Shown: positions 38,577 to 61,641 of the stretch, one piece after another
How positions within the stretch are numbered: the stretch's first letter is position 1
How the letters are laid out: each line of letters starts with the position of its first letter
Assembly: GCF_002224285.1 (NCBI RefSeq)
Contig: NZ_CP022436.1
Location: 2,790,001 to 2,854,000 of the forward strand
Reading direction: 5' to 3'
DNA: 64,000 bases
Source of the DNA: Arthrobacter sp. YN
GTDB lineage: Bacteria; Actinomycetota; Actinomycetes; Actinomycetales; Micrococcaceae
The notes under the pieces: generated by a model
The model's input: only the letters and a program-made list of their open reading frames with translations
Databases searched by the model: none
What the model was told of the DNA's origin: nothing
Made by a program: the position numbers and the translations under genes

Positions 38577-39317
38577 GTGGCGAATCAACTTGGTCTGAAC
38601 ATCGACCGATCCTCCCCCGTGCCCCTTTACCATCAGGTTGTCCAAGGCATCGAAGCAGCGATCCACAGCGGCCTCCTGGAGCCCGGAAGCCGGCTGGATA
38701 ACGAGATTGACCTCGCAGCACAGCTCAACCTGTCCCGGCCCACCATGCGCAAAGCCATGGATGAACTGGTCCGTTCCGGCCTTCTGGTCCGCAAACGCGG
38801 CGTCGGAACCCAGGTGGTCTCCAGTCAAGTCCGTCGGCCGCTGGAGCTTTCAAGCCTTTTTGACGACCTCACGAACAATGGCAAGAAACCCACCACGGAA
38901 GTACTGAGTTTCTCCCACATGGAGGCTGACGCGCCAACTCTGGCAACCCTGCAACTCCCGGCCGGTTCCAAGGTTTACCACTTCACCCGCCTGCGCAAAG
39001 TGGGCGGTAAGCCATTGGCGTTGATGGAGAACTGGGTCCGCGACGACATCGCCTCCATGGATGAAGCCATGCTTGCGGCCGAGGGCCTCTATGCGATTCT
39101 GCGCAGGGGTGGCGTGAACTTCCGCCTGGCCACACAGCGCATCGGCGCAATGATTGCCAATGACTATCAGGCACCCCTTCTTGAAACCGACGTCAACTCT
39201 GCTTTGGTCACCATGGAACGTACCGCGGTGGACGACACCGGGCGACGGGTCGAGACCGGCCATCACGTGTACCGCGCCGACTCCTACAGCTTTGAAATGA
39301 CCCTCGTACAGCGCTAA
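38577..39317 (+). CDS. GntR-family transcriptional regulator (HutC type), likely inositol-responsive
   Basis: A 246-residue regulator. The N-terminal ~70 residues are a GntR winged helix-turn-helix (YHQVVQGIEAAIHSGLLEPGSRLDNEIDLAAQLNLSRPTMRKAMDELVRSGLL), and the C-terminal ~150 are an UTRA ligand domain (VLSFSHMEADAPTLATLQLPAGSKVYHF ... GHHVYRADSYSFEMTL). It precedes iolB on the same strand, 20 bases away, so it is encoded with inositol catabolism. By position it is the counterpart of the corynebacterial GntR repressor IolR. GTG 38577 follows CGGGGAA at a normal spacing; a TTG at 38550 is a poorer start. The effector is probably an inositol catabolite; that is inference. Confidence 0.9.
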   Translation: MANQLGLNIDRSSPVPLYHQVVQGIEAAIHSGLLEPGSRLDNEIDLAAQLNLSRPTMRKAMDELVRSGLLVRKRGVGTQVVSSQVRRPLELSSLFDDLTNNGKKPTTEVLSFSHMEADAPTLATLQLPAGSKVYHFTRLRKVGGKPLALMENWVRDDIASMDEAMLAAEGLYAILRRGGVNFRLATQRIGAMIANDYQAPLLETDVNSALVTMERTAVDDTGRRVETGHHVYRADSYSFEMTLVQR

Positions 39318-39337: not shown

Positions 39338-40231
39338 ATGACCAATTGGGTCTACCCCCTGGGCACTGCCGCCGACGGCGACTGGGATATCTCACTCGGA
39401 ACCTCCGACTCCGCAACGGTGGTGGACGGCTGGGCCCATACGGGACTGAAGGTCGCCACCCTCGCCGCGGGCGCCGCCGTCGAACTTCCAGCGGTCAGTG
39501 AGGAACGGATTGTGGTTCCCCTCAATGGATCGTTCACTGTCACAGTGGACGGCGTCGAATACCCCCTTGCGGGGCGACCCTCCGTATTCAACGGGCCCAG
39601 TGACATCCTGTATTCAGGCATCGGGAAAGCAGTCACCATCAGTTCGTCCGACGGCGGCCGCGTCGCCGTGGCCACTGCCCCGGCACAGGCCTCCCACCCA
39701 ACACGACTGGTAACAGCTGCTGAGACGCCGGTTGAACTGCGTGGAGCCGGCAATTGCTCACGTCAAGTCCACAATTTCGGGACACCCGCAGCTCTGGAAG
39801 CAGACCGTTTTATTGTCTGCGAGGTCATCACCCCCGCCGGAAACTGGTCCTCCTATCCCCCGCATAAGCATGACGAGGAGAAGGACGGAGAAACGCACCT
39901 CGAGGAGATCTACTATTTCGAGACCCAGGTTGCCGCAGGCTCCGGCGCTCCCTCCAACGCAGATGCCATTGGCTACCAGCGGGTTTATGCCTCTGACGAG
40001 CGCCCCATCGACGTTTCGGCAGAGGTCCGCACAGGCGACGTCGTCCTGGTCCCCTATGGCTGGCACGGCCCCGCCATGGCAGCGCCGGGCTATGACATGT
40101 ACTACCTCAACGTGATGGCCGGCCCCGGACCAGTCCGCGAGTGGCTCATCAGCGACGATCCCCACCACGGCTGGGTACGGCAGAGCTGGGACGGCCAGGA
40201 CATCGACCCGCGGCTTCCGTTCGGGGTTTGA
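39338..40231 (+). CDS. iolB: 5-deoxy-glucuronate isomerase IolB
   Basis: IolB converts 5-deoxy-D-glucuronate to 2-deoxy-5-keto-D-gluconate, the step between IolD and IolC. The 297-residue protein is a two-domain cupin. The signature region WSSYPPHKHDEEKDGETHLEEIYYFE contains the metal-binding His-x-His and Glu, and the closing VLVPYGWHGPAMAAPGYDMYYLNVMAGP carries the second metal-binding His. It is separated from iolC-iolD by about 17 kb but stands directly after the GntR gene, so it is likely under the same regulator. A bidirectional terminator follows. Confidence 0.95.
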   Translation: MTNWVYPLGTAADGDWDISLGTSDSATVVDGWAHTGLKVATLAAGAAVELPAVSEERIVVPLNGSFTVTVDGVEYPLAGRPSVFNGPSDILYSGIGKAVTISSSDGGRVAVATAPAQASHPTRLVTAAETPVELRGAGNCSRQVHNFGTPAALEADRFIVCEVITPAGNWSSYPPHKHDEEKDGETHLEEIYYFETQVAAGSGAPSNADAIGYQRVYASDERPIDVSAEVRTGDVVLVPYGWHGPAMAAPGYDMYYLNVMAGPGPVREWLISDDPHHGWVRQSWDGQDIDPRLPFGV

Positions 40232-45567: not shown

Positions 45568-46566
45568 TTAGCGGATACCCTGTTCAGCGAACTTCAAGAC
45601 GTCGGCAGCGTTGGACTGATCAACGATGGCCGGTCCGGTGAGCACTGACTGCCCGCCACCGACTTTGAAGCCGCCGCGCTTGTTCTGCCACAACGCATCC
45701 ACGGCCCCGTAGCCCTGGAGCCATGGCTGCTGGTCCACAGTGAACAGGACACTGCCATCGACAACCTTTTGGGCGAGTTCCTTATTGAGATCGAAACTCG
45801 CAACCTTTGCCGAACTCCCGGCAGTGCTGACTGATTTCAACAGCGTCAGGGTGATGGGAGCACCGAGGCCGATGATGACGTCGGCATCCTTGGAGGCCTG
45901 CAGTTTTGCGGTGGCAGTAGACTCCACCGATGTCATGTCAGCTCCATTGACGTAGAGGATCTCCGTCCCAGGGACTTTTGCCTTAACGCCTGCGCACCGG
46001 GCTTCCAGCCCTACATGCCCCTGCGCCTGGATCACGCATACCGGGTGCTTGTAGCCGCCCTCTGCCAAGCGCGTACCCACTGCCTCGCCGGCGAGCTTTT
46101 CATTTGAACCGAAGTGCGTAAACGCTCCAAGCTGCGCGGAGGCCGCCTCGCCGGCATTGAAGCTGACGATCGGAATGCCGGCGTCCGCTGCCTTTTTCAA
46201 GGCATCTTTCAGTGCATCCGGGGTGGCCAGCGTTACGGCGATGCCGTCCACCTTTTGATCCACGGCCTGCTCAATGAGCTGCGCCTGCCGGCCCGCCTCC
46301 GGATCGGAGGTGTACAGGAGCTCCACATTGTCCTTCGCCGCGGCTTCCTCAGCACCCTTCCTTACGGTGTCCCAGAAAGTGTCACCCGCGGGTGCGTGGG
46401 CAATCAACGCAATCTTCATCCGCTCCGTGGTGGCCACCTGGCCTCCCCCACCGGCGGAGCCAGCCTCGGGAGCCCTCCCGCCGGTACTCGAACAAGCACT
46501 CAAAGCCACCATCGGCACAACTGCCGCAACGAGTGCTGCTTTGCGCCACGAAAAACCAGTCACCAT
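45568..46566 (-). CDS. Sugar ABC transporter substrate-binding lipoprotein
   Basis: A periplasmic-binding-protein type 1 lipoprotein of 332 residues. The signal sequence ends in the lipobox LSAC, followed by a Ser/Gly-rich linker. The fold begins MKIALIAHAPAGDTFWDTVRKGAEEAA, with VDGIAVTLATPDALKDALKKAADAGIPIVSFNAG typical of RbsB/IbpA-type sugar-binding proteins. ATG 46566 lies after AAAGGAG and was preferred over a longer frame. It is the first gene of the ABC/dehydrogenase operon and its promoter is discernible. Cyclitol binding is inferred from gene context. Confidence 0.93.
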   Translation of the reverse strand: MVTGFSWRKAALVAAVVPMVALSACSSTGGRAPEAGSAGGGGQVATTERMKIALIAHAPAGDTFWDTVRKGAEEAAAKDNVELLYTSDPEAGRQAQLIEQAVDQKVDGIAVTLATPDALKDALKKAADAGIPIVSFNAGEAASAQLGAFTHFGSNEKLAGEAVGTRLAEGGYKHPVCVIQAQGHVGLEARCAGVKAKVPGTEILYVNGADMTSVESTATAKLQASKDADVIIGLGAPITLTLLKSVSTAGSSAKVASFDLNKELAQKVVDGSVLFTVDQQPWLQGYGAVDALWQNKRGGFKVGGGQSVLTGPAIVDQSNAADVLKFAEQGIR

Positions 46567-46629
46567 AATCTCCTTTGATCCCAGGCCCGGGCCGCCACCT
46601 TGCAGCCTCCGGAGCACCGTCTACGTTTG

Positions 46630-46658: not shown

Positions 46659-46674
46659 TAGTTTGTCCTGACAT
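46659..46674 (-). promoter_or_regulatory. Putative inositol-regulon operator, ABC operon
   Basis: On the minus strand it reads ATGTCAGGACAAACTA, immediately followed by the -35 TTGACA. Exactly the same 16-mer is found at 61185-61200, and a 13/16 match with the same spacing to TTGACA lies at the iolC promoter (60657-60672). The core TGTCCTGACA agrees with the corynebacterial IolR consensus as I recall it (KGWCHTRACA). Confidence 0.65.
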
Positions 46675-46704
46675 TAGTATGTTTGGACGTGGCGAGCTCT
46701 GACC

Positions 46705-47724: not shown

Positions 47725-47766
47725 GAGGCATGTCCCCCACGGGCCTGGACATGGCACAGACAATGA

Positions 47767-47795
47767 TTGACAGGACATATAGACATAGTTACGCT
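47767..47795 (+). promoter_or_regulatory. Predicted promoter of the dehydrogenase/TIM-barrel pair
   Basis: TTGACA (47767-47772), 17-bp spacer, TACGCT (47790-47795). The 12-mer TTGACAGGACAT at 47767-47778 is shared exactly with the iolC promoter on the minus strand at 60656-60645, so a common regulator may bind across the -35 box. Predicted start point about 47802, just ahead of the LacI operator. Confidence 0.55.
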
Positions 47796-47813
47796 CAAAG
47801 TCAGCATGCAAAA

Positions 47814-47827
47814 TTGTAGCGCTACAA
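47814..47827 (+). promoter_or_regulatory. LacI-family operator palindrome
   Basis: TTGTAGCGCTACAA is a perfect 14-bp palindrome with the central CG of LacI-family operators. It lies just downstream of the predicted transcription start of the dehydrogenase operon and 90 bases from the divergent LacI gene, an ideal position for repression. Confidence 0.75.
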
Positions 47828-47874
47828 AATGCCGTTGAGCCTCCCCGCCACGGCTGAATTTCAAAGGAGAAATC

Positions 47875-49062
47875 ATGGCTGACAGCCTTGGTGTCGCGGT
47901 TATCGGCGCAGGTATGGCCGGTAAGGCCCACGCGGCGGCCTACCGGACAGCGTCTACCCTCTACAGCCCGGTGCTGCCGCAGATCCGATTGGTTTCCATA
48001 GGTGACGTCAACGCCGAATTTGGCTCGCTCGCTGCCCGCCGCTTTGGCTACGAGCGGCATGACACCTCGTGGCAGGCCATCGCCGAAGCAGACGATGTTG
48101 ACGTCGTGAGCGTGGTCATTGCCAACTCGCTCCATCGCGAGGTAGTTGAAGGCCTCCTGGCCGCTGGCAAGCACGTGCTGTGTGAGAAGCCCCTCAGCGA
48201 TTCGTTGGAGGACGCACGCGCCATGGCCGAAGCTGCGCGGGCTGCCGAGGGCCGCGGAAACCTGGCCCGAATCGGCTTCACCTTCCGCCGCACCCCGGGC
48301 ATTGCCTATATCCGGGACCTCATTCAGAACGGCGTTCTTGGCAACGTCCTGCACTTCAGTGGCCGGTACTGGACCGACTACGGCTTCAGCCCCTCCGCCC
48401 CCATGAGCTGGCGCTACAAGGGCGGCCCCGGTTCCGGCGCGCTGGCCGACGTCGGAAGCCACCTGACCTATGTTTCCGAATTCCTCTGCGGCGACATCAA
48501 ATCCATCAGCGGCGGCCGCCTGACCACCGCGATCGACAAGCGGCCCCTTCCGCTGAGCGCAGTCATGGGTCACGACCACGTTGCCGTCAGCGACACCTTC
48601 GAGGCCGTCGAGAACGACGACTACGCAGCCTTCAACGCAGAGTTCGCCAACGGCGCCGGCAGCTTCGAAGTCTCCCGCGTCGCCGCAGGCCACGCCAACA
48701 GCCTCCAGTTTGAGGTCTTCTGCGAAAACGGCGCAGCAAAGTTCGACCAGCGCCGCCCCAGCGAGATCCAGCTGTTCCTCACCGACGGGTCCGGAAACGA
48801 GAATGGCTACCGCCAAGTCATCCTCGGCCCAGGCCACCCCTACATCACTGGCGGGCTGGCCATGGACGCTCCGGAGGTCGGCTTCGGCCAGAACGATGCG
48901 TTCGGTTACCAGGCCCGCGCGTTCCTTGAAGAAGTGGCAGGGCTCAGCGATGAAGCATCACTGCCCCGCTGCGCCACGTTCGACGACGGCGTACGCAACA
49001 TGGAACTTCTCGGCGCCGTTACCGAATCCGCCCTGAACAACGGAAGGAAGATCCAGCTATGA
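47875..49062 (+). CDS. Gfo/Idh/MocA oxidoreductase (LacI-controlled pair)
   Basis: A 395-residue dehydrogenase, longer than the other family members in this island. The Rossmann motif is GVAVIGAGMAGKAHAAAYR, the catalytic Lys motif is VLCEKPLSDS, and the GGPGSGALADVGSHLTYVSEFLCG segment carries the active-site Asp-His. This is the long subgroup found together with TIM-barrel isomerases for sugar or cyclitol derivatives. AAAGGAG lies eight bases before the ATG. Its end overlaps the next gene's start by four bases, so the two enzymes are produced together. The substrate is unknown. Confidence 0.88.
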   Translation: MADSLGVAVIGAGMAGKAHAAAYRTASTLYSPVLPQIRLVSIGDVNAEFGSLAARRFGYERHDTSWQAIAEADDVDVVSVVIANSLHREVVEGLLAAGKHVLCEKPLSDSLEDARAMAEAARAAEGRGNLARIGFTFRRTPGIAYIRDLIQNGVLGNVLHFSGRYWTDYGFSPSAPMSWRYKGGPGSGALADVGSHLTYVSEFLCGDIKSISGGRLTTAIDKRPLPLSAVMGHDHVAVSDTFEAVENDDYAAFNAEFANGAGSFEVSRVAAGHANSLQFEVFCENGAAKFDQRRPSEIQLFLTDGSGNENGYRQVILGPGHPYITGGLAMDAPEVGFGQNDAFGYQARAFLEEVAGLSDEASLPRCATFDDGVRNMELLGAVTESALNNGRKIQL

Positions 49063-50692: not shown

Positions 50693-52147
50693 TCAGCCGC
50701 TTACTCCGGCCTTCTCTTTGAAAAGGTGCTCCAGTTCCTCAAGGGACTTGCCTTTGGTCTCCGGAACAGTGCGCTTGACCCACACAATGGCACACAACTG
50801 CAGCGCCACGAAGATAAAGAATGTCGCGGAGACTCCCATCAGCGAGACCAGCTGCGGGAAGAAGAAGCCGATCAGGAAGTTGATCATCCACAACACAAAG
50901 ACGCAGATACCCATGCCGATGCCACGGACGTGCATGGGGAAGATCTCGGACATGGTCAGCCACGTCACGGTTCCAATACATCCCTGCATGGAAGCAAGGA
51001 ACGTCACCATGAACAGCAACACCAGGTAGCCACGCAACGTACTTTCCGGCAAGGCAAGGGAAATGAGCGCAATGGCCGTCAGTGATGACGCCGTACCAAT
51101 CAACCCCACAATGAGCATGGGTTTCCGGCGCACCCGCGTCATCAAATACATGCCTACGATGACGGCTGCCACGGACGTCATGCCGTTGAGTACGTTGGCA
51201 ATCAGTGCCCCTTGGTCCCCAAAACCGGAAGAGGACAAGATGGTGGTCCCGTAATACATGATGGCATTTACGCCGCTGATCTGGTTGATGATGGCCATGC
51301 CAAGACCGACCACGAAGATCCTGCGTATCCAGGGCACGGCGAGATCCTTGAACGTGCCGAGCTTGGACTGATAGTCCTCCCTGGCCGCCTGGCGTACTTC
51401 GTCGAACTCAGCCCCGACATCCCCTGCACTCCGTGTCGAGCGCAGCACTTCCAGGACTTCGCCGAATCGACCGGCTGACGCCAGCCAGCGTGGGCTCTCC
51501 GGCAGGACGAGCATGCCGAACCACAGAATCACGGCGGGAAGCGTGGCAATCACCAGCATCCAGCGCCACACGTGCATCTCTTCAGGGAACAGGTTTCCCA
51601 GCACCGCATTGGAGGTAAAAGCCAGGAACTGGCCGGTGACGATCATGAGCTCGTTCTGCGTGACGATCCTGCCGCGCTGGGCGGCCGGCGACATCTCGGC
51701 CAGATATACGGGAACGATGACCGAGGCACCGCCGACGGCGAGACCCAGGACTGTACGGGCAAGGACCAGGAGCTCCGTGCTTGGCGCCAGGGAGCACCCC
51801 ACGGTGGCAAAGGCGAAGATCAGGGCCAGGCCCATGATCGTCTTGCGCCGTCCAAACCGATCAGACAACCGTCCCGCGCTGATCGCGCCGAATGCTGCAC
51901 CGAACAGCAGCGTTGAGGTGACAAGACCCTCGGTCAGCGGAGTCAGGCCCAGGTCCTTCTGCATGAACGGTAAAGCACCGTTGATCACGCCGGTGTCATA
52001 GCCGAACAGCAGTCCGCCGAACGTGGAGAACAGCGCTACCTTGCGGAGAAATTTCTTTGGATCGGTCGGCTTGCTGGTCTTCCCGGAAGTGGCGGGGGGG
52101 ACGGCTGGCCGACCAGTTTCGGTCTCGATGGAAGAAGACTTGGTCAT
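50693..52147 (-). CDS. MFS sugar/inositol transporter (sugar porter family)
   Basis: A 484-residue permease with twelve membrane segments and the sugar-porter motifs: [16 protein letters not shown] near the start, [14 protein letters not shown] in loop 2-3, [19 protein letters not shown] after helix 4, and the closing [13 protein letters not shown]. It is a typical proton-coupled myo-inositol transporter (IolT-type) by motif and context. It is the last gene of the eight-gene minus-strand operon. A 15-bp near-copy of the regulon operator lies just before its start (52166-52180). With the ABC system at 43.5-46.6 kb there are two cyclitol uptake routes. Confidence 0.93.
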
Positions 52148-52164: not shown

Positions 52165-53037
52165 TTAGTTTGTCCGGGCAACATAGTCCACCATTGTCTT
52201 GAGCTGGTAGCGGGAAACGTCCTCCGCGTTCTCATCCTCGGCGAAGACCGACGAGACCATCACGGTGTTGGCCTTGCCCAGGAATCCGATCTCCTTCAGA
52301 CCGCCAAAGAACTCGTCCCAGTTCACGTCGCCGTCGCCGATCTTCAGGTGCTGGTGGACGCGGACGGCATTGCCGGGCGGGTTGGTGATGTAGCGGAGGC
52401 CGTGGGAAGCATGGTGGTTCATGGTGTCTGAGACGTGCACCAAACGGAGCTTGTCCCCTGCTGCCCGCATGATCTCCAAGGGCTTGTTCCCCATGTGGAA
52501 ACTGTGCGAAGCAACGTAAACCATCCCGATGTTCGGCGAGTTGACGCCCCGGATGACGCGCAGTGCTGCCAACCCGTCTTCCACGAAATCATCAGGGTGC
52601 GGATCTATGAGCACGTCCATGTCCTCGCGTTCAATGATCGGCAACAGCTCTTCCATGGAACGGTAAAACGCGCGCTCGGACTCCTCTGCCTTCTCCGGGC
52701 GGCCGCTGAACTCGGTGTTCATCGTCTGGACGCCCAGGTCAACTGCGATCTGGATGGCACGCTTCCAGTAGCGAACAGCTGCCTCCCGGGCGTCCTCGTC
52801 GGGTCCTGACCAGCGAAGAACGGGCAGGACGGAGGCGATTTCGACGCCGGCATCCTTGCACGCGGCTTTCAGTTTGGCCACCAGTTCGTCGTCCGCCTTG
52901 GGGTGGTTGAAGAACGGGATGAGGTCCGCGTGCGGAGTCATTTGCAGGTACTTGTAGCCAAGATCTGCAGCTACCCGGGGGAACTCCAACAGGCTGTGGC
53001 TGTGGTGGAACGGCGTGGGATCAAGTGCGATCTTCAT
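52165..53037 (-). CDS. iolH: IolH-like TIM-barrel protein
   Basis: A 290-residue xylose-isomerase-like TIM barrel that resembles Bacillus IolH in several segments, from memory: the opening [10 protein letters not shown], the [31 protein letters not shown] block (here [16 protein letters not shown]), [14 protein letters not shown], and [28 protein letters not shown]. IolH is conserved in inositol operons; its exact step is uncertain. It lies between a dehydrogenase and the transporter gene, with gaps of 10 and 17 bases, so the three are co-expressed. Glu/Asp/His residues of a metal site are present. Confidence 0.82.
52166..52180 (-). promoter_or_regulatory. Possible internal operator before the MFS transporter gene
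   Basis: TAGTTTGTCCGGGCA (read on the plus strand) matches the regulon box TAGTTTGTCCTGACA in 13 of 15 bases. It overlaps the end of the IolH-like gene and lies 18 bases upstream of the transporter start. It could be an internal control site, or chance within coding sequence. Confidence 0.3.
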
Positions 53038-53047
53038 GGCCCATCCC

Positions 53048-54061
53048 CTACTTGTAAAGATCCGGTTTGGTGTTCAGCTGGACTTTGACCTTTTCGCCGG
53101 ACTTCTGTGCCTCGACGCCTGCCTCGCAGCAGGCAGCGGTGGCATAACCGTCCCAGGCGGTTGGACCGCCGATCTCGCCGCGAAGGGCGGCGTCCACCCA
53201 AGCCTGCACCTCGACGTCGTACGCTGCTCCAAAACGGTCCTCGAAGCCGGGTGTCACGTCGCCGCCCCACTTGCCCGCGCTTTGAACGTAGGGACCGTTG
53301 TCGCCACCGATGCTGACGATCCCGTCTTCGAAGGACGCCTGCGTGGCCACCTGGTAGCCGAACTTTGCGTTGACATAGATTTCGACGTCGGCCAGCACAC
53401 CTGACGCGGTTTCCAGCAGTACATGCTGGGGGTCATGCTGGCCGTTCGGGGCATTGCGTGTCGCCTTACCCAGACGGACCTGCACGGAAGTGATTTCCTC
53501 ACCCGTGAAGTAGCGGATCGCGTCGAACTCGTGGACCACGGAGTCGTTGATCAGCATCTCGTTGGTGAAGCCCTCGGGCGTGCTCGGGTTACGGTGCTGG
53601 TGGTGCAACATCAACAGCTCCCCCAATTCGCTGCCGGCGATGATGGCACCCAATGCCGAGTACTCGGCATCGAAGCGGCGCATGAAGCCTACTTGGATAC
53701 GTTTGTGGCCCAACGCCTGCTCAGCCTGAACAACCTTCCATGCACTGTCGGCGTCCGGTGTCAGGGGCTTCTCACAGAGAATCGGGAAGTCTTTCTCCAG
53801 GGCCTTGTACAGGATTTCCTCGTGGAGGAAGCCCGGGGTCGCGATCAGGACGGCGTTCACGTCGCCGTTGTTCAGCGCCTCATCGGCGCTGGACAGCGCG
53901 ACGGCGCCATTGATGCCCTCGACGGCGGCCTGCGCCCGGGCAAGGTCGACATCGACGACGGCGGCAACTTCAGCACCGTGGATGCGGGTGCTGAGGCGCT
54001 TGATATGGTCCGCACCCATGCGGCCCGCACCGATGACGGCAACGCGGAGAGTCTTGGTCAC
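53048..54061 (-). CDS. Inositol 2-dehydrogenase-like Gfo/Idh/MocA protein in the iolC operon
   Basis: A 337-residue NAD(P)-dependent dehydrogenase. The Rossmann motif is LRVAVIGAGRMGADHIKRL, the catalytic Lys motif PILCEKPLTP, and the EMLINDSVVHEFDAIRYFTG segment carries the active-site Asp and His. It is the operon-embedded candidate for IolG, oxidising myo-inositol to scyllo-inosose with NAD. The GADHI opening is shared with the dehydrogenase at 42426, suggesting a duplication within the island. It follows the TIM-barrel gene by 48 bases and precedes the IolH-like gene by 10. Confidence 0.9.
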   Translation of the reverse strand: MTKTLRVAVIGAGRMGADHIKRLSTRIHGAEVAAVVDVDLARAQAAVEGINGAVALSSADEALNNGDVNAVLIATPGFLHEEILYKALEKDFPILCEKPLTPDADSAWKVVQAEQALGHKRIQVGFMRRFDAEYSALGAIIAGSELGELLMLHHQHRNPSTPEGFTNEMLINDSVVHEFDAIRYFTGEEITSVQVRLGKATRNAPNGQHDPQHVLLETASGVLADVEIYVNAKFGYQVATQASFEDGIVSIGGDNGPYVQSAGKWGGDVTPGFEDRFGAAYDVEVQAWVDAALRGEIGGPTAWDGYATAACCEAGVEAQKSGEKVKVQLNTKPDLYK

Positions 54062-54109: not shown

Positions 54110-55027
54110 TTACTGGACCCTGGTACGGGATCCGCAGGACAGCAGGTAATTGCGGGTTCGCTTGGCGATCGGCATGGGTACATCGAAGGCTACCGGGTAC
54201 ATGTCTTGTTCCACGATGCCGAAGATCGGCCGGTTGAGCGCCTCGACGGCTTCGATGACGGCGCGCAAATCGGGGAGGCCGTTCGGCGGCTCGGTCATGA
54301 CACCGGCCAGGTTGGCGGCTGCCCAGGTCATGTTCTTTTCGTTGACCTCCGCGAGTACCTCAGGATTGATCTGCTTCAGGTGCAGGTATCCAATGCGGTC
54401 CGGGTAGTTCTTGATGAGTTCCAGGCTGGACGCACCGCAGTACTCCGCGTGCCCAGTGTCCAGGCAGAGGTTCAGGTACCGCGGATCCGTGGCAGCAAGA
54501 AGGGTCTCGATGTCCTGCTGGGCACCAACGTGGGAGTCGGCGTGGGAGTGGAACTGTTGGTGCAGCCCGAAGTCCTCCAAGAGGACCTTGCCCATGCGGT
54601 TGTGGCCTGCGAACAGGTCAGCCCATTGCACGTCCGTGAGTTCGCCGTTCTCCACAGCTTCGCCAGTGACGTCGTCACGCCACATCGCGGGAATAACCAC
54701 GATGTGTTCACCGCCCATTGCGGCCGTGAGTTCGGCCACCTTGCGGGCCGGTTCCCACGCTTCGTCGTACTGCTTCGCACCGCGATGGAACGCTGTGAAG
54801 ACCGTACCAGCCGTGACTTTGAGGTCGCGCTGCTTCAGTTCATCAGCCAACCGGCTGGGGTCGTTGGGCAAGTAGCCATACGGACCCAGTTCAATCCACT
54901 TGTAGCCGGACTCCGCTACTTCATCCAGGAATCGCTCCCAGGGGGTCTGCTGGGGGTCATCCGGGAACCAGACACCCCAGGAGTCAGGGGCGGTACCGAT
55001 GATCAGCTTGTTCTCGACATCAGTCAT
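54110..55027 (-). CDS. TIM-barrel protein, putative inosose dehydratase/isomerase (IolE or IolI type)
   Basis: A 305-residue xylose-isomerase-like TIM barrel. It opens LIIGTAPDSWGVWFPDD, followed by GYKWIELGPYGYLP. Metal-site segments are LCLDTGHAEYCG and GYLHLKQINPEV. The context, between iolA and an iolG-type gene, calls for an inosose dehydratase (IolE) or inosose isomerase (IolI); this cluster lacks another obvious IolE, so IolE activity is the likelier assignment, but sequence alone does not decide. ATG 55027 was preferred over the longer frame that overlaps iolA. Confidence 0.8.
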   Translation of the reverse strand: MTDVENKLIIGTAPDSWGVWFPDDPQQTPWERFLDEVAESGYKWIELGPYGYLPNDPSRLADELKQRDLKVTAGTVFTAFHRGAKQYDEAWEPARKVAELTAAMGGEHIVVIPAMWRDDVTGEAVENGELTDVQWADLFAGHNRMGKVLLEDFGLHQQFHSHADSHVGAQQDIETLLAATDPRYLNLCLDTGHAEYCGASSLELIKNYPDRIGYLHLKQINPEVLAEVNEKNMTWAAANLAGVMTEPPNGLPDLRAVIEAVEALNRPIFGIVEQDMYPVAFDVPMPIAKRTRNYLLSCGSRTRVQ

Positions 55028-55064
55028 GACGGCGTTGTCTTCCTTTGCGGCGGTGGGGACGGAT

Positions 55065-56576
55065 TTAGTTGGAGGGGAAGTTGTACGAGGCGCCGGACGC
55101 GTGGGTGGGTTCGGGCCAGCGTGAGGTGATGACTTTGCCGCGGGTGTAGAAGGAGACGCCCTCGGGGCCGTAAATGTGCTTGTCGCCGAAGAGGGAGTTC
55201 TTCCAGCCGCCGAAGGAGTGGTAAGCCACGGGGACGGGCAGGGGCACATTGATGCCGACCATGCCTACAGTCACGGAGCGCTGGAACTTTCTTGCGTTCG
55301 CACCCGATGAGGTGAAGATCGCCGTCCCGTTGCCGTACGGGTTCGAGTTGATCAGTCGGATGCCTTCCTCGAGGTCGGCCACACGGACCACGACCAGGAC
55401 GGGGCCGAAGATCTCCTCGGTGTAGGCGGTCATTTCCGTCTTGACGTGGTCGATCACCGTGGGGCCTACCCAGAAGCCGTCTTCGTGGCCTGGGACCACC
55501 AGGTCGCGGCCGTCAACCACCATGGCCGCGCCTGCGGTTTCGGCTTCGGTGACGATCTTGACGATGCGTTCCTTGGAGGCCGGGGTAATGACCGGGCCCA
55601 TTTCGGCGTCGGGTTCCGTGCCGTTCTTGACCTTCACGGCCAGGGCGCGTTCTTCGACCTTCTTTACGATCAGGTCCGCAGCGTCACCCACAGCAACGGC
55701 AACAGAGATAGCCATGCAGCGCTCCCCCGCGGAGCCGAAAGCAGCAGCAGCGAGGTGGTCAGCTGCGTTGTCAAGGTCGGCGTCGGGCATCACAATGGCG
55801 TGGTTCTTCGCCCCGCCCAAGGCTTGGACGCGCTTGCCGTGCTTGGTAGCGGTCTCGTGGACGTACTGGGCGATCGGAGTGGAACCAACAAAGGAGATTC
55901 CGTCCACGTCCGGGTGGGTCAGCAAACCGTCGACGGTTTCCTTGCCGCCGTGCAATACCTGGAAGACGCCGTCGGGAAGGCCGGCCTGCTTCCAGAGCTT
56001 GGCCAGGAGCATCGGTGCTGACGGGTCACGCTCGGAGGGCTTGAGGATGAAGGCGTTGCCCGTGGCGATGGCCATCGGTGCCATCCACAGCGGCACCATG
56101 ACCGGGAAGTTGAACGGGGTAATACCTGCCACGACGCCCAGGGGTTCGCGGAAGGAGAAGACATCGATGCCGGTGGAGACCTGGTCCGAGTAGTCGCCCT
56201 TGAGCAGCTGCGGGATGCCACAGGCGAACTCGATGACTTCCAGGCCACGGCCGATCTCACCCTTCGCGTCGGAGAGGACTTTGCCGTGTTCGGCGGTGAT
56301 CAGCTCAGCAAGTTCGTCCACGTGCGCGGCGACGAGCTCACGGAACTTGAACAACACCGCAGTGCGCTTGGCCAAGGAAATGTCGCCCCACGAATCCGCC
56401 GCCTTGCGGGCCGCTGCAACGGTGGTGTTCAGGTCAGCCTCGTTGGCCAGGCGCAGTTCAGCCGAAACCTGGCCGGTAGCCGGGTTGTAGACCGGCTGGG
56501 TGCGGTCCCCTTCGCCTGTGGTTTCAGCGCCGTTGATGAAGTGGTGAATGGTGGTCAGTGTGGTCGTCGTCGACAT
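55065..56576 (-). CDS. iolA: CoA-acylating methylmalonate-semialdehyde dehydrogenase IolA
   Basis: Converts malonate semialdehyde (inositol route) or methylmalonate semialdehyde (valine route) to acetyl- or propionyl-CoA. The 503-residue protein is an aldehyde dehydrogenase with the catalytic Cys287 in GSAGERCMAISVAVA. The NAD-binding glycine turn is in ISFVGSTPIAQYVHETA, and the LGGAKNHAIVMPDADLDN segment is characteristic of MmsA. It follows iolD by 30 bases and precedes the TIM-barrel gene by 37. With IolD upstream it completes the pathway to central metabolism. Confidence 0.95.
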   Translation of the reverse strand: MSTTTTLTTIHHFINGAETTGEGDRTQPVYNPATGQVSAELRLANEADLNTTVAAARKAADSWGDISLAKRTAVLFKFRELVAAHVDELAELITAEHGKVLSDAKGEIGRGLEVIEFACGIPQLLKGDYSDQVSTGIDVFSFREPLGVVAGITPFNFPVMVPLWMAPMAIATGNAFILKPSERDPSAPMLLAKLWKQAGLPDGVFQVLHGGKETVDGLLTHPDVDGISFVGSTPIAQYVHETATKHGKRVQALGGAKNHAIVMPDADLDNAADHLAAAAFGSAGERCMAISVAVAVGDAADLIVKKVEERALAVKVKNGTEPDAEMGPVITPASKERIVKIVTEAETAGAAMVVDGRDLVVPGHEDGFWVGPTVIDHVKTEMTAYTEEIFGPVLVVVRVADLEEGIRLINSNPYGNGTAIFTSSGANARKFQRSVTVGMVGINVPLPVPVAYHSFGGWKNSLFGDKHIYGPEGVSFYTRGKVITSRWPEPTHASGASYNFPSN

Positions 56577-56606: not shown

Positions 56607-58553
56607 CTAGCCGAGCAGTTTGCGCTGGCGGTTCTTGTGGTCTGTGTACGTCTTGTAGGCCTGCTTGGTGGACTCCAGGTCCGAGACCTGCGAGACGGGG
56701 ACGTCCCACCAGGATTCGGAGCCCGGGGCGTCCAACAAGGGATCGGACTCGACGTGGATCACGATCGGCCCGGTTTCCGGAGCGGCCTTGGCTTCCTTGA
56801 TGGCAGCGCCGAGGGCTTCGATGACGTTCTCCCCCGGTTCGATCCGGATGACCCTTGCGCCCAGGGATTCGGCGTTGGTAGCGAGGTCGATGGGAAGGTT
56901 CTCGCCGGCGTCGAAGCTGTGCTGTTCTTTGTCCAGGACCCGGTACTGCGTACCGAAGCGCTGGGAACCGAGAGATTCGGAGAGCGAGCCGATGGAGGCG
57001 TAGCCGTGGTTCTGGATAAGGATCACGATCAGCTTGATGCGTTCGGCGACGGCGGTGACCAGTTCGGTGTGCATCATCAGGTAGGAGCCGTCCCCGACCA
57101 TGACAACGACGTCCCTCTCGACGCCGCCAGCGGCGGCTTCGGCCAGCGCTGCGCGCTTGACGCCCAAACCGCCGGGAATTTCGTAGCCCATGCAGGAGTA
57201 CGCGTATTCCACGTGGTATCCGAACGGGTCCCGGACGCGCCACATTTTATGCAGATCACCCGGCAGCGAACCGGCGGCGCAGATGACAACGTCTTGGTCA
57301 TCCATGGCCTTGTTGGTGGCCCCAATGATCTCGTTCTGTGCCGGCAACGGCGTGTAACGGGTCTCAAACGCCTCGTCCACGATTCCGTTCCAGCGCTTCT
57401 TCTCTGCTGCCACCTTCTCTTCAAGGTCGACACCAACGCGATAGCCGCCCAAGGCCTGGTTGAGCTTGACCAGTGCCTTGCGGGCGTCGGCGACGATCGG
57501 AAGCGTGGTGCCATGCTTGTAGGCGTCGATAGGGGCGACATTGATGTTGACGAACTTTACGTCCGGGTTTTGGAACGCCGTGCGGGACGCGGTGGTGAAG
57601 TCCTCGTAGCGGGTGCCGATTCCAATGATGAGATCCGCCTCGGCTGCGATGGCGTTGGCCGCCGTCGTTCCGGTTGAACCGATGGCGCCGAGGGAGAACT
57701 TGTGGTCCCACGGCAGGACGCCGACACCGGCCTGCGTGTTGCCCACCGGAATGCCCGTGAGCTCAGCGAACTTGGCGAGCTCGTCGTTGGCGAAGGCGTA
57801 GAGAACGCCACCGCCGGCAATGATCAGGGGGCGCTTGGCGGCGCGGATGGCCTCCGCGGCGCGGCGGATGTCGTCATCCTCGGCCTCGGGTCGGCGGATC
57901 CGCCATTCACGTTCGGCCAGGAACTCTTCCGGAACGTCGAAGGCCTCGGCCTGGACATCCTGCGGCAGCGAAATGGTTACCGCGCCGGTGTCCGCAGGGT
58001 CCGTGAGGACCCGCAGCCCGTGATGGAGCGCTGAAAACACCTGCTCAGGACGGGAGACCCGGTCGAAGAACCTGGACAACGGACGGAAGGCATCGTTGAC
58101 CGTGATGTCATATGCGTACGGGAGTTCCAGCTGCTGGAGCACGGGGTCAGCTGCGCGGGTCGCAAACGTATCGCTCGGCAACAGCAGCACGGGAAGACGG
58201 TTGGTAGTGGCCAACGCTGCACCGGTCAGCATGTTCGAGGAACCCGGACCGATGGAGGTGCTGATGGCGAACGTCTGGCGACGGCGTGTGTGCCGGGCGT
58301 ATCCAACGGCCTGATGTACCTGCGCCTGCTCATTGCGGCCCTGGTAGTACGGCATGATCGCAGGGTCCGCGGCCTGGTACTGCTTCAGCGCCTGACCCAC
58401 GCCGGCCACGTTTCCGTGCCCGAAGATACCGAACGTGCCGGGAATCAACCGCTCACGGTACTCCATGCCATTGATGGAATCCGCGGTGTACTGCTTGGAA
58501 AGGAACTCGACCACGGCCTGCGCCACGGTCATCCGACGGGTTGCTGTACCCAT
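56607..58553 (-). CDS. iolD: THcHDO hydrolase IolD (trihydroxycyclohexanedione acylhydrolase)
   Basis: IolD opens the ring of 3D-(3,5/4)-trihydroxycyclohexane-1,2-dione to 5-deoxyglucuronate. The 648-residue protein is a thiamine-diphosphate enzyme of the acetolactate-synthase fold. The PP domain begins with GIFGHGNVAGVGQAL and YYQGRNEQAQVHQAVGYA, carrying the catalytic Glu/His region. The ThDP-binding GDGSYLMMHTEL (GDGx25-30N) is near the C-terminus. It follows the aldolase gene by six bases in the iolC operon, and the stop is 30 bases before iolA. Its family length is about 640. Confidence 0.95.
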   Translation of the reverse strand: MGTATRRMTVAQAVVEFLSKQYTADSINGMEYRERLIPGTFGIFGHGNVAGVGQALKQYQAADPAIMPYYQGRNEQAQVHQAVGYARHTRRRQTFAISTSIGPGSSNMLTGAALATTNRLPVLLLPSDTFATRAADPVLQQLELPYAYDITVNDAFRPLSRFFDRVSRPEQVFSALHHGLRVLTDPADTGAVTISLPQDVQAEAFDVPEEFLAEREWRIRRPEAEDDDIRRAAEAIRAAKRPLIIAGGGVLYAFANDELAKFAELTGIPVGNTQAGVGVLPWDHKFSLGAIGSTGTTAANAIAAEADLIIGIGTRYEDFTTASRTAFQNPDVKFVNINVAPIDAYKHGTTLPIVADARKALVKLNQALGGYRVGVDLEEKVAAEKKRWNGIVDEAFETRYTPLPAQNEIIGATNKAMDDQDVVICAAGSLPGDLHKMWRVRDPFGYHVEYAYSCMGYEIPGGLGVKRAALAEAAAGGVERDVVVMVGDGSYLMMHTELVTAVAERIKLIVILIQNHGYASIGSLSESLGSQRFGTQYRVLDKEQHSFDAGENLPIDLATNAESLGARVIRIEPGENVIEALGAAIKEAKAAPETGPIVIHVESDPLLDAPGSESWWDVPVSQVSDLESTKQAYKTYTDHKNRQRKLLG

Positions 58554-58559
58554 TGATAG

Positions 58560-59522
58560 CTACTCCGATACTTTCACTGGAATGCGGTCCGACAAGCCTC
58601 GATCTGCTGAAACCGCGGCTGTAGGCGCCGCATTGTTCAGCAGCGACGCGGCCGTCGCTACGGCACCGGCCACGTCGCCGTCGGCCGGGTAAAGCAGTGT
58701 CCGCCCAACGGTGAGGCCCTGAACGCCGGGCAGTGCCAACGCGGCCTTCCAGCTGGCGAAGATCTCGTCCTGCGTCCCGGCAGGGTCTCCACCCAGCAAG
58801 ACGGTGGGAAGCGTGGTGGAGGCCATGACACGTTCCATCTCTTCCACTACAGGCAGTTTCATCCAGGTATAGGCGCTGGTCGAACCCAAGCCTTCGGCGA
58901 TGCCGACCGACTTGATGACGGCGTCCGCGCGGAGGTCGTTGCGCACTTTGCCATGCGGATCACGCACCGAGAGAAAGGGCTCAACCATGGCAATGAGTTT
59001 GCGTTCGGCCAGGGAGTCAATAGCTTTGGCTGTGGCTTCGAGGGTGGCCACAGTATCCGGGTCGCCCAGACAGATGCGCGTCAGCATTTTTCCGCCATCC
59101 GCGCCCAGCGCTTCCAGGGCAGCCGCGGTATGACCGGTGAAGCGGTCGTCGAACTCGTTGACCAGCCCTGCCAGGCCACCGCGGTTCATGGAACCGAAGA
59201 CGAGCTTGCCTTCCAGGGCACCCAACAACAGGAGGTCGTCCATGATGTCCGGCGAGGCCAGGATGCCATCAACGGCGGGGTTCGCCAGGGCAATCTGCAA
59301 CCGATCCAGAAGATCCCTGCGATCAGCCATGGCCATCGGTTGCGAACCGACGGACAGCGCACCGCGTGCCGGGTGGTCAGCTGCCACAATAAAATTCTGC
59401 GTGCCGTGCTTCAGTCCTGGATGCCTGCGCCGGGTGGCAGCCGCCCGGGCTACCGCCTCCGGATCCTCCAACCGGACTCGGCTCAAATGCTCGTACCGGC
59501 GGGGGTCATCATTCAGGCTCAT
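58560..59522 (-). CDS. Cgl0159-like (beta/alpha)8 aldolase-family protein, likely DKGP aldolase
   Basis: A 320-residue protein of the Cgl0159 family, a TIM-barrel group related to DeoC/LacD aldolases and found in the corynebacterial inositol cluster. Segments: FIVAADHPARGALSVG (barrel strand with catalytic-type Asp-His), MNRGGLAGLVNEFDDRFTGHTAAALEALGADGGKMLTRI, and TVLLGGDPAGTQDEIF. A Lys-bearing strand occurs around WMKLPVVEEMER. It overlaps iolC by four bases and no canonical IolJ is present in the island, so I infer that it splits 2-deoxy-5-keto-gluconate 6-phosphate. Not proven by sequence. Confidence 0.8.
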   Translation of the reverse strand: MSLNDDPRRYEHLSRVRLEDPEAVARAAATRRRHPGLKHGTQNFIVAADHPARGALSVGSQPMAMADRRDLLDRLQIALANPAVDGILASPDIMDDLLLLGALEGKLVFGSMNRGGLAGLVNEFDDRFTGHTAAALEALGADGGKMLTRICLGDPDTVATLEATAKAIDSLAERKLIAMVEPFLSVRDPHGKVRNDLRADAVIKSVGIAEGLGSTSAYTWMKLPVVEEMERVMASTTLPTVLLGGDPAGTQDEIFASWKAALALPGVQGLTVGRTLLYPADGDVAGAVATAASLLNNAAPTAAVSADRGLSDRIPVKVSE

Positions 59523-60535
59523 CGCACTGCTCCTTCTGCGAGGGTGGACGCCGTAAGTGCTGCACCGGGCACAGGCCGGCCACGCTCTGCCAGCAGCGAG
59601 GTGACCTCATCCGGCGTCGGCATTGCATCGGCACAGGAAAGGCGGGAAGCAACGATCGCACCGGAGGCGTTGGCGTAGTCCAGCACCTCGGAAAGCGGCC
59701 AGCCCGACAATAAACCGTGACAGAAAGCGCCGCCGAAGGAATCGCCGGCACCCAGGCCATTGAGAGTTTCCACGGGGACCGGGGCGGAAACCACGCGTTC
59801 GCTACGGGTCTTGGCCATGACACCATCGGGCCCGAGCTTTACGACCGCAATTTCGACGCCGGCGGCGAGCAAGCGGTCCGCCTGCTCATCAGGAGTTCCC
59901 TCCCCCACGGCAACAGCGCATTCTTTGTCGTTGCCAATCGCCACAGTCACGTGCGGGAGAACTTTCGCAACCTCTCCACGGGCTTCCTCTTCAGAAGTCC
60001 AGAACATCGGGCGGTAGTCCAGGTCCAGGATGGTGAATTGACCTTCCTTGAGTCCGGTGCGGGGACGGGCCTCGTGCGCTTTGATATGGGCGCTGCGGCT
60101 GGGTTCCTGGCAGAGGCCGGTGACGGTGGACCAAAAGATTCCGGCGTCCCGGATGGCGTCAAGATCGAGGTCTTCAGCCTTGATCTGCAGGTCGGGGGCG
60201 GTGGGAAACCGGCCGTAGAAGTACAGAGGGAAGTCTTCCGGCGGCTTGATCGCGCAGAAGGTCACGGCCGTGGGGTACTCCTTGACCGGCAAGACGAAAG
60301 AATCGTCCACGTTGAACTTGTGCAGTTCCCGGTGGAGGTAGTTACCGAAGGCATCGTCACCGGTGCGGGTGATGATTCCCGTGCGGCGACCATGACGTGC
60401 GGCAGCGACGGCCACGTTCGAGGGCGAACCTCCAAGGTATTTGCCGAAAGACGTCACGTCCTCCAGGTCCACCCCAATGTCGTTCGGGTAGATATCAACG
60501 CTGATGCGCCCGATCGTAAGCAGTTCGTGGGTCAC
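59519..60535 (-). CDS. iolC: 5-dehydro-2-deoxygluconokinase IolC
   Basis: Phosphorylates 2-deoxy-5-keto-gluconate at C6. The 338-residue protein is a ribokinase/PfkB-family kinase. It opens THELLTIGRISVDIYPNDIG, has the early signature GGSPSNVAVAAARHG and the PfkB C-terminal signature NGLGAGDSFGGAFCHG with the catalytic Asp. The GTG at 60535 follows AAAGG; the longer frame adds no conserved sequence. It is the first gene of the large eight-gene operon and its promoter and operator boxes lie immediately upstream. It ends by overlapping the aldolase gene. Confidence 0.94.
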   Translation of the reverse strand: MTHELLTIGRISVDIYPNDIGVDLEDVTSFGKYLGGSPSNVAVAAARHGRRTGIITRTGDDAFGNYLHRELHKFNVDDSFVLPVKEYPTAVTFCAIKPPEDFPLYFYGRFPTAPDLQIKAEDLDLDAIRDAGIFWSTVTGLCQEPSRSAHIKAHEARPRTGLKEGQFTILDLDYRPMFWTSEEEARGEVAKVLPHVTVAIGNDKECAVAVGEGTPDEQADRLLAAGVEIAVVKLGPDGVMAKTRSERVVSAPVPVETLNGLGAGDSFGGAFCHGLLSGWPLSEVLDYANASGAIVASRLSCADAMPTPDEVTSLLAERGRPVPGAALTASTLAEGAVR

Positions 60536-60627
60536 GGTGATCGTTGACCTTTCTCTTGTGAACTCTGAACCTTTGAGCGCTGGGCCCCAATGCCTTGCCA
60601 CCCCTCAGTGAGCGGGGCCACATGACT

Positions 60628-60656
60628 ACTCTGCACCAGAATTAATGTCCTGTCAA
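60628..60656 (-). promoter_or_regulatory. Predicted iolC promoter
   Basis: On the minus strand: TTGACA (60656-60651), 17-bp spacer, weak CAGAGT (60633-60628). The hexamer is embedded in TTGACAGGACAT, identical to the promoter at 47767. It is abutted by the operator at 60657-60672, as in the ABC promoter. Confidence 0.5.
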
Positions 60657-60672
60657 AGGTTTGTACTGACAT
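60657..60672 (-). promoter_or_regulatory. Putative inositol-regulon operator, iolC operon
   Basis: Reads ATGTCAGTACAAACCT on the minus strand, 13 of 16 matching the identical copies at 46659 and 61185. It abuts the TTGACA -35 box, the same geometry as at the ABC operon. Confidence 0.6.
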
Positions 60673-60702
60673 AATTACAACGAAACGTAGTTGCCCTGAA
60701 AT

Positions 60703-60729
60703 GCCCGCGGAAGGACTCATTCCGCGGGC
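60703..60729 (-). terminator. Terminator hairpin after the tautomerase gene
   Basis: GCCCGCGGAA and TTCCGCGGGC form a 10-bp perfect stem with a 7-nt loop. It lies 37 bases beyond the tautomerase stop and separates that gene from the iolC promoter. Confidence 0.7.
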
Positions 60730-60765
60730 CACCGGCGGCGACGACGCCAAGCCTGGCAACGGGGG

Positions 60766-61170
60766 CTACTTTCGCGGAACCGCCAATTCGCCCGTTACGT
60801 ACTGGGCGCGGCCAAAGCCAAAGGACCAGTCACTTGCAGTGTTTTCGACATACCCAAGGAACACGTCCTCACCAGCGACCCCAACCTCACCCAGCCGGGC
60901 GGCAATTGCCGCGAAAAGGGACTGCTTTGCTTCCCGACTCCGCCCCTCCTGGGTGAATATTTGGATCATGACGACGTTTGAAGTCCGCTCAAAACCCAAT
61001 CCGGCATCCTGGGCGTAAATCTGGCCTTCGGAGTGCTCCGTGACGATGTGAAAGTAGTCGCGCTCAGGGATGCCGTACTCAGCCAGTATCGCGTCATGGA
61101 TGCTTCGGCTGATCCCACTTAGCGCTTCCGGACTCCTGCCGGCGTTTACGTCAATTCGAACGAGCGGCAT
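60766..61170 (-). CDS. Tautomerase-family protein with an inositol-regulon operator
   Basis: A 134-residue member of the tautomerase superfamily (4-oxalocrotonate tautomerase-like). Starting at ATG 61170, after AAAAGGGG, gives MPLVRIDVNAGRSPE, so Pro2 becomes the catalytic N-terminal proline after Met removal. An upstream in-frame start would bury this Pro and is rejected. Two tandem beta-alpha units fit 134 residues. A perfect copy of the 16-bp operator lies 15 bases upstream of the start codon. It stands upstream of iolC on the same strand. The substrate is unknown; a keto-enol step on an inositol-derived diketone is my inference. Confidence 0.85.
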   Translation of the reverse strand: MPLVRIDVNAGRSPEALSGISRSIHDAILAEYGIPERDYFHIVTEHSEGQIYAQDAGLGFERTSNVVMIQIFTQEGRSREAKQSLFAAIAARLGEVGVAGEDVFLGYVENTASDWSFGFGRAQYVTGELAVPRK

Positions 61171-61184
61171 CTTGGCCCCTTTTG

Positions 61185-61200
61185 TAGTTTGTCCTGACAT
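61185..61200 (-). promoter_or_regulatory. Putative inositol-regulon operator, tautomerase gene
   Basis: ATGTCAGGACAAACTA on the minus strand, identical in all 16 positions to 46659-46674. It overlaps the end of a candidate -10 box TAGTAT (61204-61199) and extends over the expected start point, a classical repressor position. Confidence 0.65.
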
Positions 61201-61215
61201 ACTAACAAATTGTGA

Positions 61216-61641
61216 ATGGGGCATGCAAGGAAGGCGGCTGGGTCCTCTGCCTCAGGTCACCGTGGTGGCGTCGCCCTTGGGCCGCTCCGTCATGGCTTCA
61301 TCGATCTCCTTGAGGCAGGGGTTTTGCGTCGGGAAGTTGCCCGTTCCTACACGCCCTGGCCGGTGTGCGTCTGGTACTTCATGCGAGTACCGGCTACCAA
61401 GGTGGAAGAGGTGGCGCGAAGATTGTCAGGCTTGGAAGAGGTCCGCCTCGTCACTACCACCGGAGGCACGTACTCCATCATCATGTCCGTATGGCTGCGC
61501 AGGGTTGAGGACATGACAGTGCTGGAGCGGCAACTGGGCGAGAGGCTGCCTCGGGCCGAGATCATGGATCGTTCCATCGTTCTGCCCACGCCGAAACACA
61601 TGGGTCATCAGCTTGACCCCCGCGGCAAGCGCATGAGGTGA
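61216..61641 (+). pseudogene. Truncated Lrp/AsnC-family regulator
   Basis: From about residue 55 onward (WYFMRVPATKVEEVARRLSGLEEVRLV ... SIIMSVWLRRVEDMTVLERQLGERLPRAEIMDRSIVLPTPKHMG) the frame is the C-terminal ligand-binding domain of a two-part Lrp/AsnC protein, which is normally about 320-340 residues. The N-terminal helix-turn-helix part is missing; the first ~50 residues do not resemble a regulator. I therefore call it a 5'-truncated remnant rather than a working gene. It ends at a strong hairpin and diverges from the tautomerase gene. Confidence 0.75.

Follow-up and report, generated by a model that had tools for sequence, protein, structure and literature searches.

The aldolase step of inositol breakdown releases two products, dihydroxyacetone phosphate and malonate semialdehyde, of which the second is converted to acetyl-CoA by IolA. 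Malonate semialdehyde decarboxylase (MSAD) belongs to the tautomerase superfamily. The FG41 MSAD, which has been crystallised (PDB 3mjz, 3mlc, 4lho and 4lhp), comes from a degrader of 1,3-dichloropropene and chloroacrylate and is not known to stem from an iol cluster. In Corynebacterium glutamicum the motif of the regulator IolR is KGWCHTRACA. In published papers MSAD is described as converting malonate semialdehyde to acetaldehyde and CO2 (PMC11641302) and as taking part in 1,3-dichloropropene breakdown (PMC10606566). IolK of Lactobacillus casei appears in a list of MSADs (PMC10606566), its gene being a member of the iol operon of that species (PMC2530867). C. glutamicum IolR is a GntR-type protein (PMC12298647) and represses iolT1, the repression being released by inositol (PMC8634428).

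Here we analyse a gene of Arthrobacter sp. YN within a stretch of 64 kb, called the window throughout. At a probability of about 0.86, we suggest that this gene encodes the counterpart of IolK, an FG41-type MSAD, which would serve as a second exit for malonate semialdehyde beside IolA and would be induced with the iol genes through a GntR-type repressor acting on a palindrome. The likeness to IolK of L. casei BL23 is that of an MSAD in an iol operon, drawn from the published listing and from gene location. The two differ in phylum, and the Micrococcaceae gene, set beside IolK, has its own operator and stands upstream of iolC.

The gene (60766..61170, minus strand) codes for 134 aa, with ATG followed by Pro-1, and its product matches the Pfam families Tautomerase_2 and Tautomerase. 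The best PDB match is FG41 MSAD (3mjz, E=1.3e-42), to which the protein is 54% identical over 132 aa, and the second solved relative is the MSAD of Pseudomonas pavonaceae (Pp MSAD, 2aag, E=1e-22), with only 34% identity. Pro-1, Asp-37, Thr-72, Gln-73, Gly-75, Arg-76, Trp-114, Phe-116, Tyr-123 and Leu-128 are common to the window protein and FG41 MSAD, so that every FG41 signature residue checked is present; PMC10606566 lists Pro-1, Asp-37, Thr-72, Gln-73, Arg-76, Tyr-123, Trp-114, Phe-116 and Leu-128. With the P. pavonaceae enzyme it shares Pro-1, Asp-37, Trp-114, Phe-116 and Leu-128; where that enzyme has a pair of arginines, the window protein, like FG41 MSAD, carries Gln-73 and Arg-76 (PMC10606566), with Gly-75 present as well. 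Among 81 orthologues, the window included, Pro-1 follows Met in 80, the exception (L105) having one base missing at the gene start, and Asp-37, Thr-72, Gln-73, Gly-75, Arg-76, Trp-114, Phe-116, Tyr-123 and Leu-128 are kept in 81/81. Hence the “tautomerase” gene most likely encodes an FG41-type MSAD.

Other assignments were considered for the protein. The NCBIfam search gave no equivalog above its cut-off, and a 4-oxalocrotonate tautomerase equivalog was ruled out, the best score being 28.2 bits against a cut-off of 55. The cis-3-chloroacrylic acid dehalogenase (cis-CaaD) residues given in PMC11641302 are His-28, Arg-70, Arg-73 and Tyr-103; the window protein has Leu-28, Ile-70, Gln-73 and Phe-103, the same numbering being assumed without alignment, and this identity was rejected as well. 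Where a public name exists, the listed proteins (the best 120 of 1856) usually go under “tautomerase family protein”, “phenylpyruvate tautomerase PptA” or “hypothetical protein”.

On the same strand lie iolC (5-dehydro-2-deoxygluconokinase; 59519..60553; TIGR04382, 365 bits, above the cut-off of 300), a Cgl0159-like protein that is the candidate for the malonate-semialdehyde-making aldolase (58560..59522; PF22649, E=2.7e-117), iolD (56607..58553; TIGR04377, 834 bits, above 715) and iolA/MMSDH, the CoA-acylating dehydrogenase (55065..56576; TIGR01722, 718 bits, above 448.5). They are accompanied, again on the minus strand, by an iolE-like ORF (54110..55249, true start probably nearer 55000; TIGR04379, 142 bits, below 290), an iolG-like dehydrogenase (53048..54061; NF052679, 304 bits, below 540), an iolH-like TIM-barrel protein (52165..53037; PF01261) and an iolT-like MFS sugar porter (50693..52147; TIGR00879, 326 bits, above 237.8). 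An ABC substrate-binding protein (45568..46617, minus strand; NF052284 for rhizopine binding, 167 bits, below 420) is the first gene of an ABC operon. The plus strand carries a GntR/UTRA regulator of the HutC type, a candidate IolR (38577..39317; PF00392 and PF07702), and iolB (39338..40231; TIGR04378, 275 bits, above 205). Since both the candidate aldolase and IolA are present in the operon of the window, MSAD would offer malonate semialdehyde, a reactive aldehyde, a further way out that needs no cofactor, and would not act on the ring ketones. With IolA in the same operon, MSAD would not be needed to complete the pathway, and its identity as an MSAD would account for the linkage at the other end of the pathway from the ring ketones.

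Between the MSAD stop codon and the iolC promoter there is a GC-rich stem-loop of 10 bp (60700-60730, -23.6 kcal/mol for a 45-base piece). The idea of a terminator between the two genes was dropped, as the stem is not conserved: a crude scan found one of 7 bp or longer in 6/80 loci.

The linkage of the gene to iol genes extends to the relatives. The genus sample of 121 genomes holds iolC in 107 and a tautomerase match in 103; in 101 of these 107 the two genes share a strand and the tautomerase precedes iolC by 86-279 bp (median 187, the distance being taken from match to match). The genomes are related, and neither these counts nor the following ones represent independent events. Only partial MSAD matches stand beside iolC in three of the 101 (G005, G079 and G088), which may reflect a disrupted gene or an assembly error. 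A tautomerase match is absent from five of the 107 iolC genomes (G001, G017, G018, G049 and G062), and the sixth exception, G092, has an unlinked copy elsewhere, 60% identical. A further set of named loci, 80 in all and the best of 231, comes from Arthrobacter, Pseudarthrobacter, Paenarthrobacter, Sinomonas and one Micrococcaceae MAG. Here iolC is directly downstream of the MSAD gene in all 80, and the loci, up to 20 kb each, contain iolD (79), the aldolase (78), iolA (75), iolG (74), iolE (72; in L114 as a weaker match, upstream) and iolH (70), several contigs ending early and a few loci being really without some of the genes. The sequence-only reading had counted a lack of iol linkage in related genomes as evidence against its proposal; the linkage is there.

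Beyond the genus, the family sample of 149 genomes has the MSAD gene in 30, spanning 10 of 32 genera, and iolC lies within the 1.5-kb flank of the gene in 19 of the 22 family genomes outside the genus. In the others the gene is flanked by iolH- and iolG-like genes instead of iolC (G568), or by an MFS gene and a weak iolG-like match (G626), and the 1.5-kb flank of G591 (40% identity) gave no iol match. In the class sample of 394 genomes, 30 have an MSAD match and 145 have iolD. By hand comparison of the 27 MSAD-bearing class-sample genomes outside the genus, 18 of which have iolD and were compared at all their iolD places, MSAD stands near iolD only in G349. Homologues at 56-61% identity (G327, G433 and G501) are unlinked to iolD, and the 10 neighbouring ORFs of the unlinked homologues in these genomes and in G258 offered no clue to a pathway except the MFS gene of G258. 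A second iol-type MSAD copy, with a variant operator kept, was seen in G022 (L254, 1274-1675), 15.8 kb from a second iolC. Linkage and the operator footprint described below strongly suggest that the MSAD gene belongs with the inositol genes.

The gene is preceded by a 20-bp inverted-repeat operator, TAGTnTGTCnnGACAnACTA, at 61185..61204. As TAGTATGTCAGGACAAACTA, the segment matches its reverse complement at 16/20 positions, and the 16-mer ATGTCAGGACAAACTA is a part of it. The sequence-only reading had reported exact copies of this 16-mer at 46659-46674 and 61185-61200 and a 13/16 copy at the iolC promoter. Our window and genome scans confirm the exact pair, both copies on the minus strand and the only ones in the genome of 5.06 Mb, and the imperfect copy is likewise found, at 60657-60672. 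That the operator precedes the tautomerase gene also stands; the distance does not, since 14 bases, not 15, separate it from the gene start at 61170. With up to 3 mismatches the 16-mer has 4 matches in the window against 0.21 expected, and 1/100 shuffles reached as many. Genome-wide, the same threshold gives 13 matches against 15 for the reversed pattern, copies with 2-3 mismatches thus occurring at the control rate, so that a lone 13/16 copy means little. The full TAGTnTGTCnnGACAnACTA has no other copy without mismatches in its own genome, the next best having 3 mismatches, at control level. With up to 1 mismatch allowed, the shorter core TGTCNNGACA has 18 matches in the window where 27.8 are expected and thus shows no enrichment; only the longer footprint is informative.

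That footprint was read from an alignment of 81 upstream regions, the window and the 80 named loci (best 80 of 231). A block of 25 columns, TTTGTTAGTATGTCAGGACAAACTA, carries 0.8-2.0 bits per column. In the 25 columns preceding it there is a block of about six columns with 0.3-1.25 bits, TTG(C/T), resembling a -35 element; two columns adjacent to the site carry 0.25-0.6 bits and the others 0.02-0.21. In the window, a -10-like TAGTAT (61199..61204, minus strand), conserved in the alignment, overlaps the left operator arm, and a -35-like TTGCAT (61223..61228, minus strand) lies 18 bp from it in the conserved flank block; both are putative promoter elements. The exact core TGTCnnGACA occurs in 45/81 regions, and the weakest region (L141) matches at 17/25 columns. 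Symmetry is 16/20 in 30 regions, 14/20 in 21, 12/20 in 22 and less in 8; a strict palindrome is not universal among the 81.

As a control, the 150 bp preceding each MSAD gene were scanned for the core ATGTCAGGACAAA, at most 2 mismatches being allowed, and it was found at 30/30 genus loci, 80/80 named loci and 18/22 family genomes outside the genus, these sets overlapping, as at least 9 of the 30 genus and at least 4 of the 22 family loci are also among the named 80. Upstream of class MSAD matches unlinked to iolD it was found in 1/26 (G258), one of the 26 (L186) being without upstream DNA. No operator was found near the MSAD gene in G349, G092, G591 or the three genomes of genus g154. In g154 (L229, L237 and L240) the MSAD gene directly follows an MFS gene and is without its own operator, as if it were transcribed from the MFS promoter. 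The claim that the gene shares the inositol operator is borne out by the core at all named loci and by the footprint over the 81 regions, and we consider it a well-supported regulatory prediction.

A symmetrised position weight matrix built from the upstream-region sites was scored over the 64-kb window. The highest score, 28.7, belongs to the tautomerase site, which was in the training set; the iolC site follows with 10.2, that of the ABC operon with 8.5 and the one before the MFS gene with 6.8, and the next best drops to -6.7. The operator copy of the iolC promoter (60657..60676) is credible, because a high-scoring site occurs in the corresponding gap in 79/80 loci, and its core ATGTCAGTACA in 71/80. 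In those 79 the site found in the 240 bp after the tautomerase scores higher than 99% of 1340 control segments, which are coding DNA and make the comparison a lenient one. A second half-operator, TGACAGGACA (60646..60655), lies 16 bp from the first, so that the iolC promoter (60646-60676) shows tandem similar sites, TGTCAGTACA and TGACAGGACA, 16 bp apart. Both are kept in 5/6 genomes whose iolC is without a linked tautomerase. The site of the ABC-transporter operon promoter (46659..46678) includes the exact 16-mer, has 8/20 symmetric positions, and its outer left arm is not conserved. The site before the MFS gene (52166..52185), 18 bp upstream of its start, is weak and contains a further 13/16 copy of ATGTCAGGACAAACTA (52166-52181). 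We note also an operator-like TGACAGGACA at 47768, before a divergent Gfo/Idh gene at 47875, and a LacI-type regulator upstream of the ABC operon in the region 46705-48837 (minus strand), on which two regulators may act.

The palindrome is shared by the iol promoters of the window and lies over a -10-like hexamer, which fits a repressor. The co-occurrence of genes supports the GntR/UTRA protein encoded at 38577 as the candidate for this repressor: by hand comparison its gene, followed by iolB, is present together with iolC in 106/121 genomes and absent together with it in 11/121, a few of the GntR matches being partial. G048, G073 and G118, all of them fragmented assemblies, have the GntR gene but no iolC, and in G030 the reverse holds. 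The KGWCHTRACA motif of C. glutamicum IolR resembles TGTCnnGACA, and both regulators are of the GntR type.

Two genomes of other families extend the picture. The iol cluster of G349 (same taxonomic order, another family), found by tblastn with the window proteins, contains an MSAD gene in the order GntR, MFS, IolG, IolB, aldolase, IolC, MSAD, IolE-like and Gfo, with divergent IolD, IolA, IolE and IolH. Its MSAD is 45% identical to the window protein and belongs to a branch different from that of the Micrococcaceae MSADs. In G258, of a third family, the MSAD contig has no iol match in 7 kb and ends 208 bp upstream of the gene; AGTATGTCCGGACATACT (L249, 166-183) stands before an MSAD-MFS gene pair and is the sole exact match in this genome, where weaker matches are at control level. 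The iol locus of G258 is on another contig and includes a GntR gene 52% identical to that of the window. Similar sites are found in front of the GntR match (at 33 bp), iolC (76 bp), an MFS gene (two, at 78 and 172 bp) and a substrate-binding-protein (SBP) match (about 200 bp). This 30-kb scan, with five variants picked after seeing sites elsewhere and about two chance matches estimated, gave six matches, of which one is not at any of these promoters.

A tree was built from 42 chosen rows; the window is one of them, 12 were taken from the 80 named loci and 10 from the 22 family loci that lie beyond the genus. FG41 MSAD falls outside the Micrococcaceae clade, in a weak grouping with G501 (94/62); some branches are long, and the deeper forks are weak. 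The iol-linked state requires 3 changes on this tree, at least 2 of them forced by well-supported branches, and a single gain of the linkage followed by losses may also account for it. Tentatively, and with more doubt than confidence, we can imagine that selection has made a non-oxidative route to acetaldehyde part of the inositol regulon of Actinomycetes, that the two well-separated MSAD branches in iol clusters (Micrococcaceae and G349) were perhaps recruited separately, that a gene away from the iol genes can keep the operator, as in G258, and that the fumigant-degrading FG41 MSAD was recruited from such an enzyme of inositol breakdown instead of having evolved for its present task.

Three other explanations have to be weighed. 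Co-regulation and iol linkage fit any step of the pathway, Pro-1 is kept, and promiscuity in the tautomerase superfamily is possible; the sequence-only reading proposed a new Pro-1 tautomerase, an accessory enzyme of cyclitol catabolism which would interconvert enolisable ketones (inosose, trihydroxycyclohexanedione) or clear a dead-end tautomer. We rejected this assignment and regard it as very improbable, because the nearest solved relatives are MSADs, all checked FG41 residues are kept, including the Trp-114/Phe-116/Leu-128 wall, and the MSAD substrate is a product of the pathway. The premise that a tautomerase is no described step likewise fails, as MSAD itself is of this superfamily. Nor would the enzyme be new to inositol catabolism, being of a known type, with IolK already described from an iol operon as an MSAD (PMC10606566, PMC2530867).

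The protein might also be an MSAD with a wider duty, a general scavenger of malonate semialdehyde from beta-alanine, uracil or chloroacrylate breakdown as well, placed beside iolC by chance. The role of MSADs in 1,3-dichloropropene breakdown (PMC10606566) and the iolD-unlinked homologues of other families would agree with this; the gene, however, has its own inositol-type operator, the second G022 copy keeps a variant of it 15.8 kb from iolC, and the unlinked G258 gene carries the palindrome, which makes such a role improbable. A paralogue with the MSAD fold acting on another decarboxylase or hydratase substrate of an inositol branch, such as rhizopine or a methylated inositol, could be imagined from the resemblance of the ABC binding protein to a rhizopine-binding protein (167 bits, below the cut-off) and from the extra Gfo/Idh and IolE-like genes nearby. 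The active-site residues checked are nevertheless those of FG41 MSAD, and the gene is beside iolC in 19/22 family genomes outside the genus; we hold this extremely improbable.

Hence, we favour the MSAD as a second malonate semialdehyde exit and suggest the following mechanism. In the absence of inositol the dimeric GntR/HutC-type repressor (gene 38577) would cover the -10/+1 region by binding the 20-bp palindrome there, and the gene would be off. Inositol or an early intermediate would then free the repressor from its site, and MSAD, iolC with the genes following it and the transporters would be switched on together. Through IolG, IolE, IolD, IolB, IolC and the aldolase, inositol would be broken down to dihydroxyacetone phosphate and malonate semialdehyde. 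The latter would be decarboxylated to acetaldehyde and CO2 by MSAD, whose Pro-1 would serve as the general acid, while IolA would work in parallel on the same compound to give acetyl-CoA. We infer the identity of the repressor, its inducer, the MSAD activity and the flux from sequence comparisons.

Last but not least, the MSAD of an iol operon is already known from L. casei IolK, and what appears to be new is the breadth of the link between iol genes and MSAD in Micrococcaceae, together with the different MSAD branch in the G349 iol cluster and the unlinked G258 MSAD, which seems to stand behind a palindrome of the same kind. The main text of a large iol-cluster survey (PMC9430895) has no mention of “tautomerase”, iolK or “decarboxylase”, and no paper on MSAD in Micrococcaceae iol operons was among the matches listed by a literature search made mostly without subscription papers. 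The proposed assignment would replace vague names (“tautomerase”, “phenylpyruvate tautomerase PptA”) by a concrete candidate enzyme. The 20-bp operator offers a handle for finding members of the regulon, even unlinked ones, and from the analysis as a whole we expect malonate semialdehyde to have two fates in soil Micrococcaceae.
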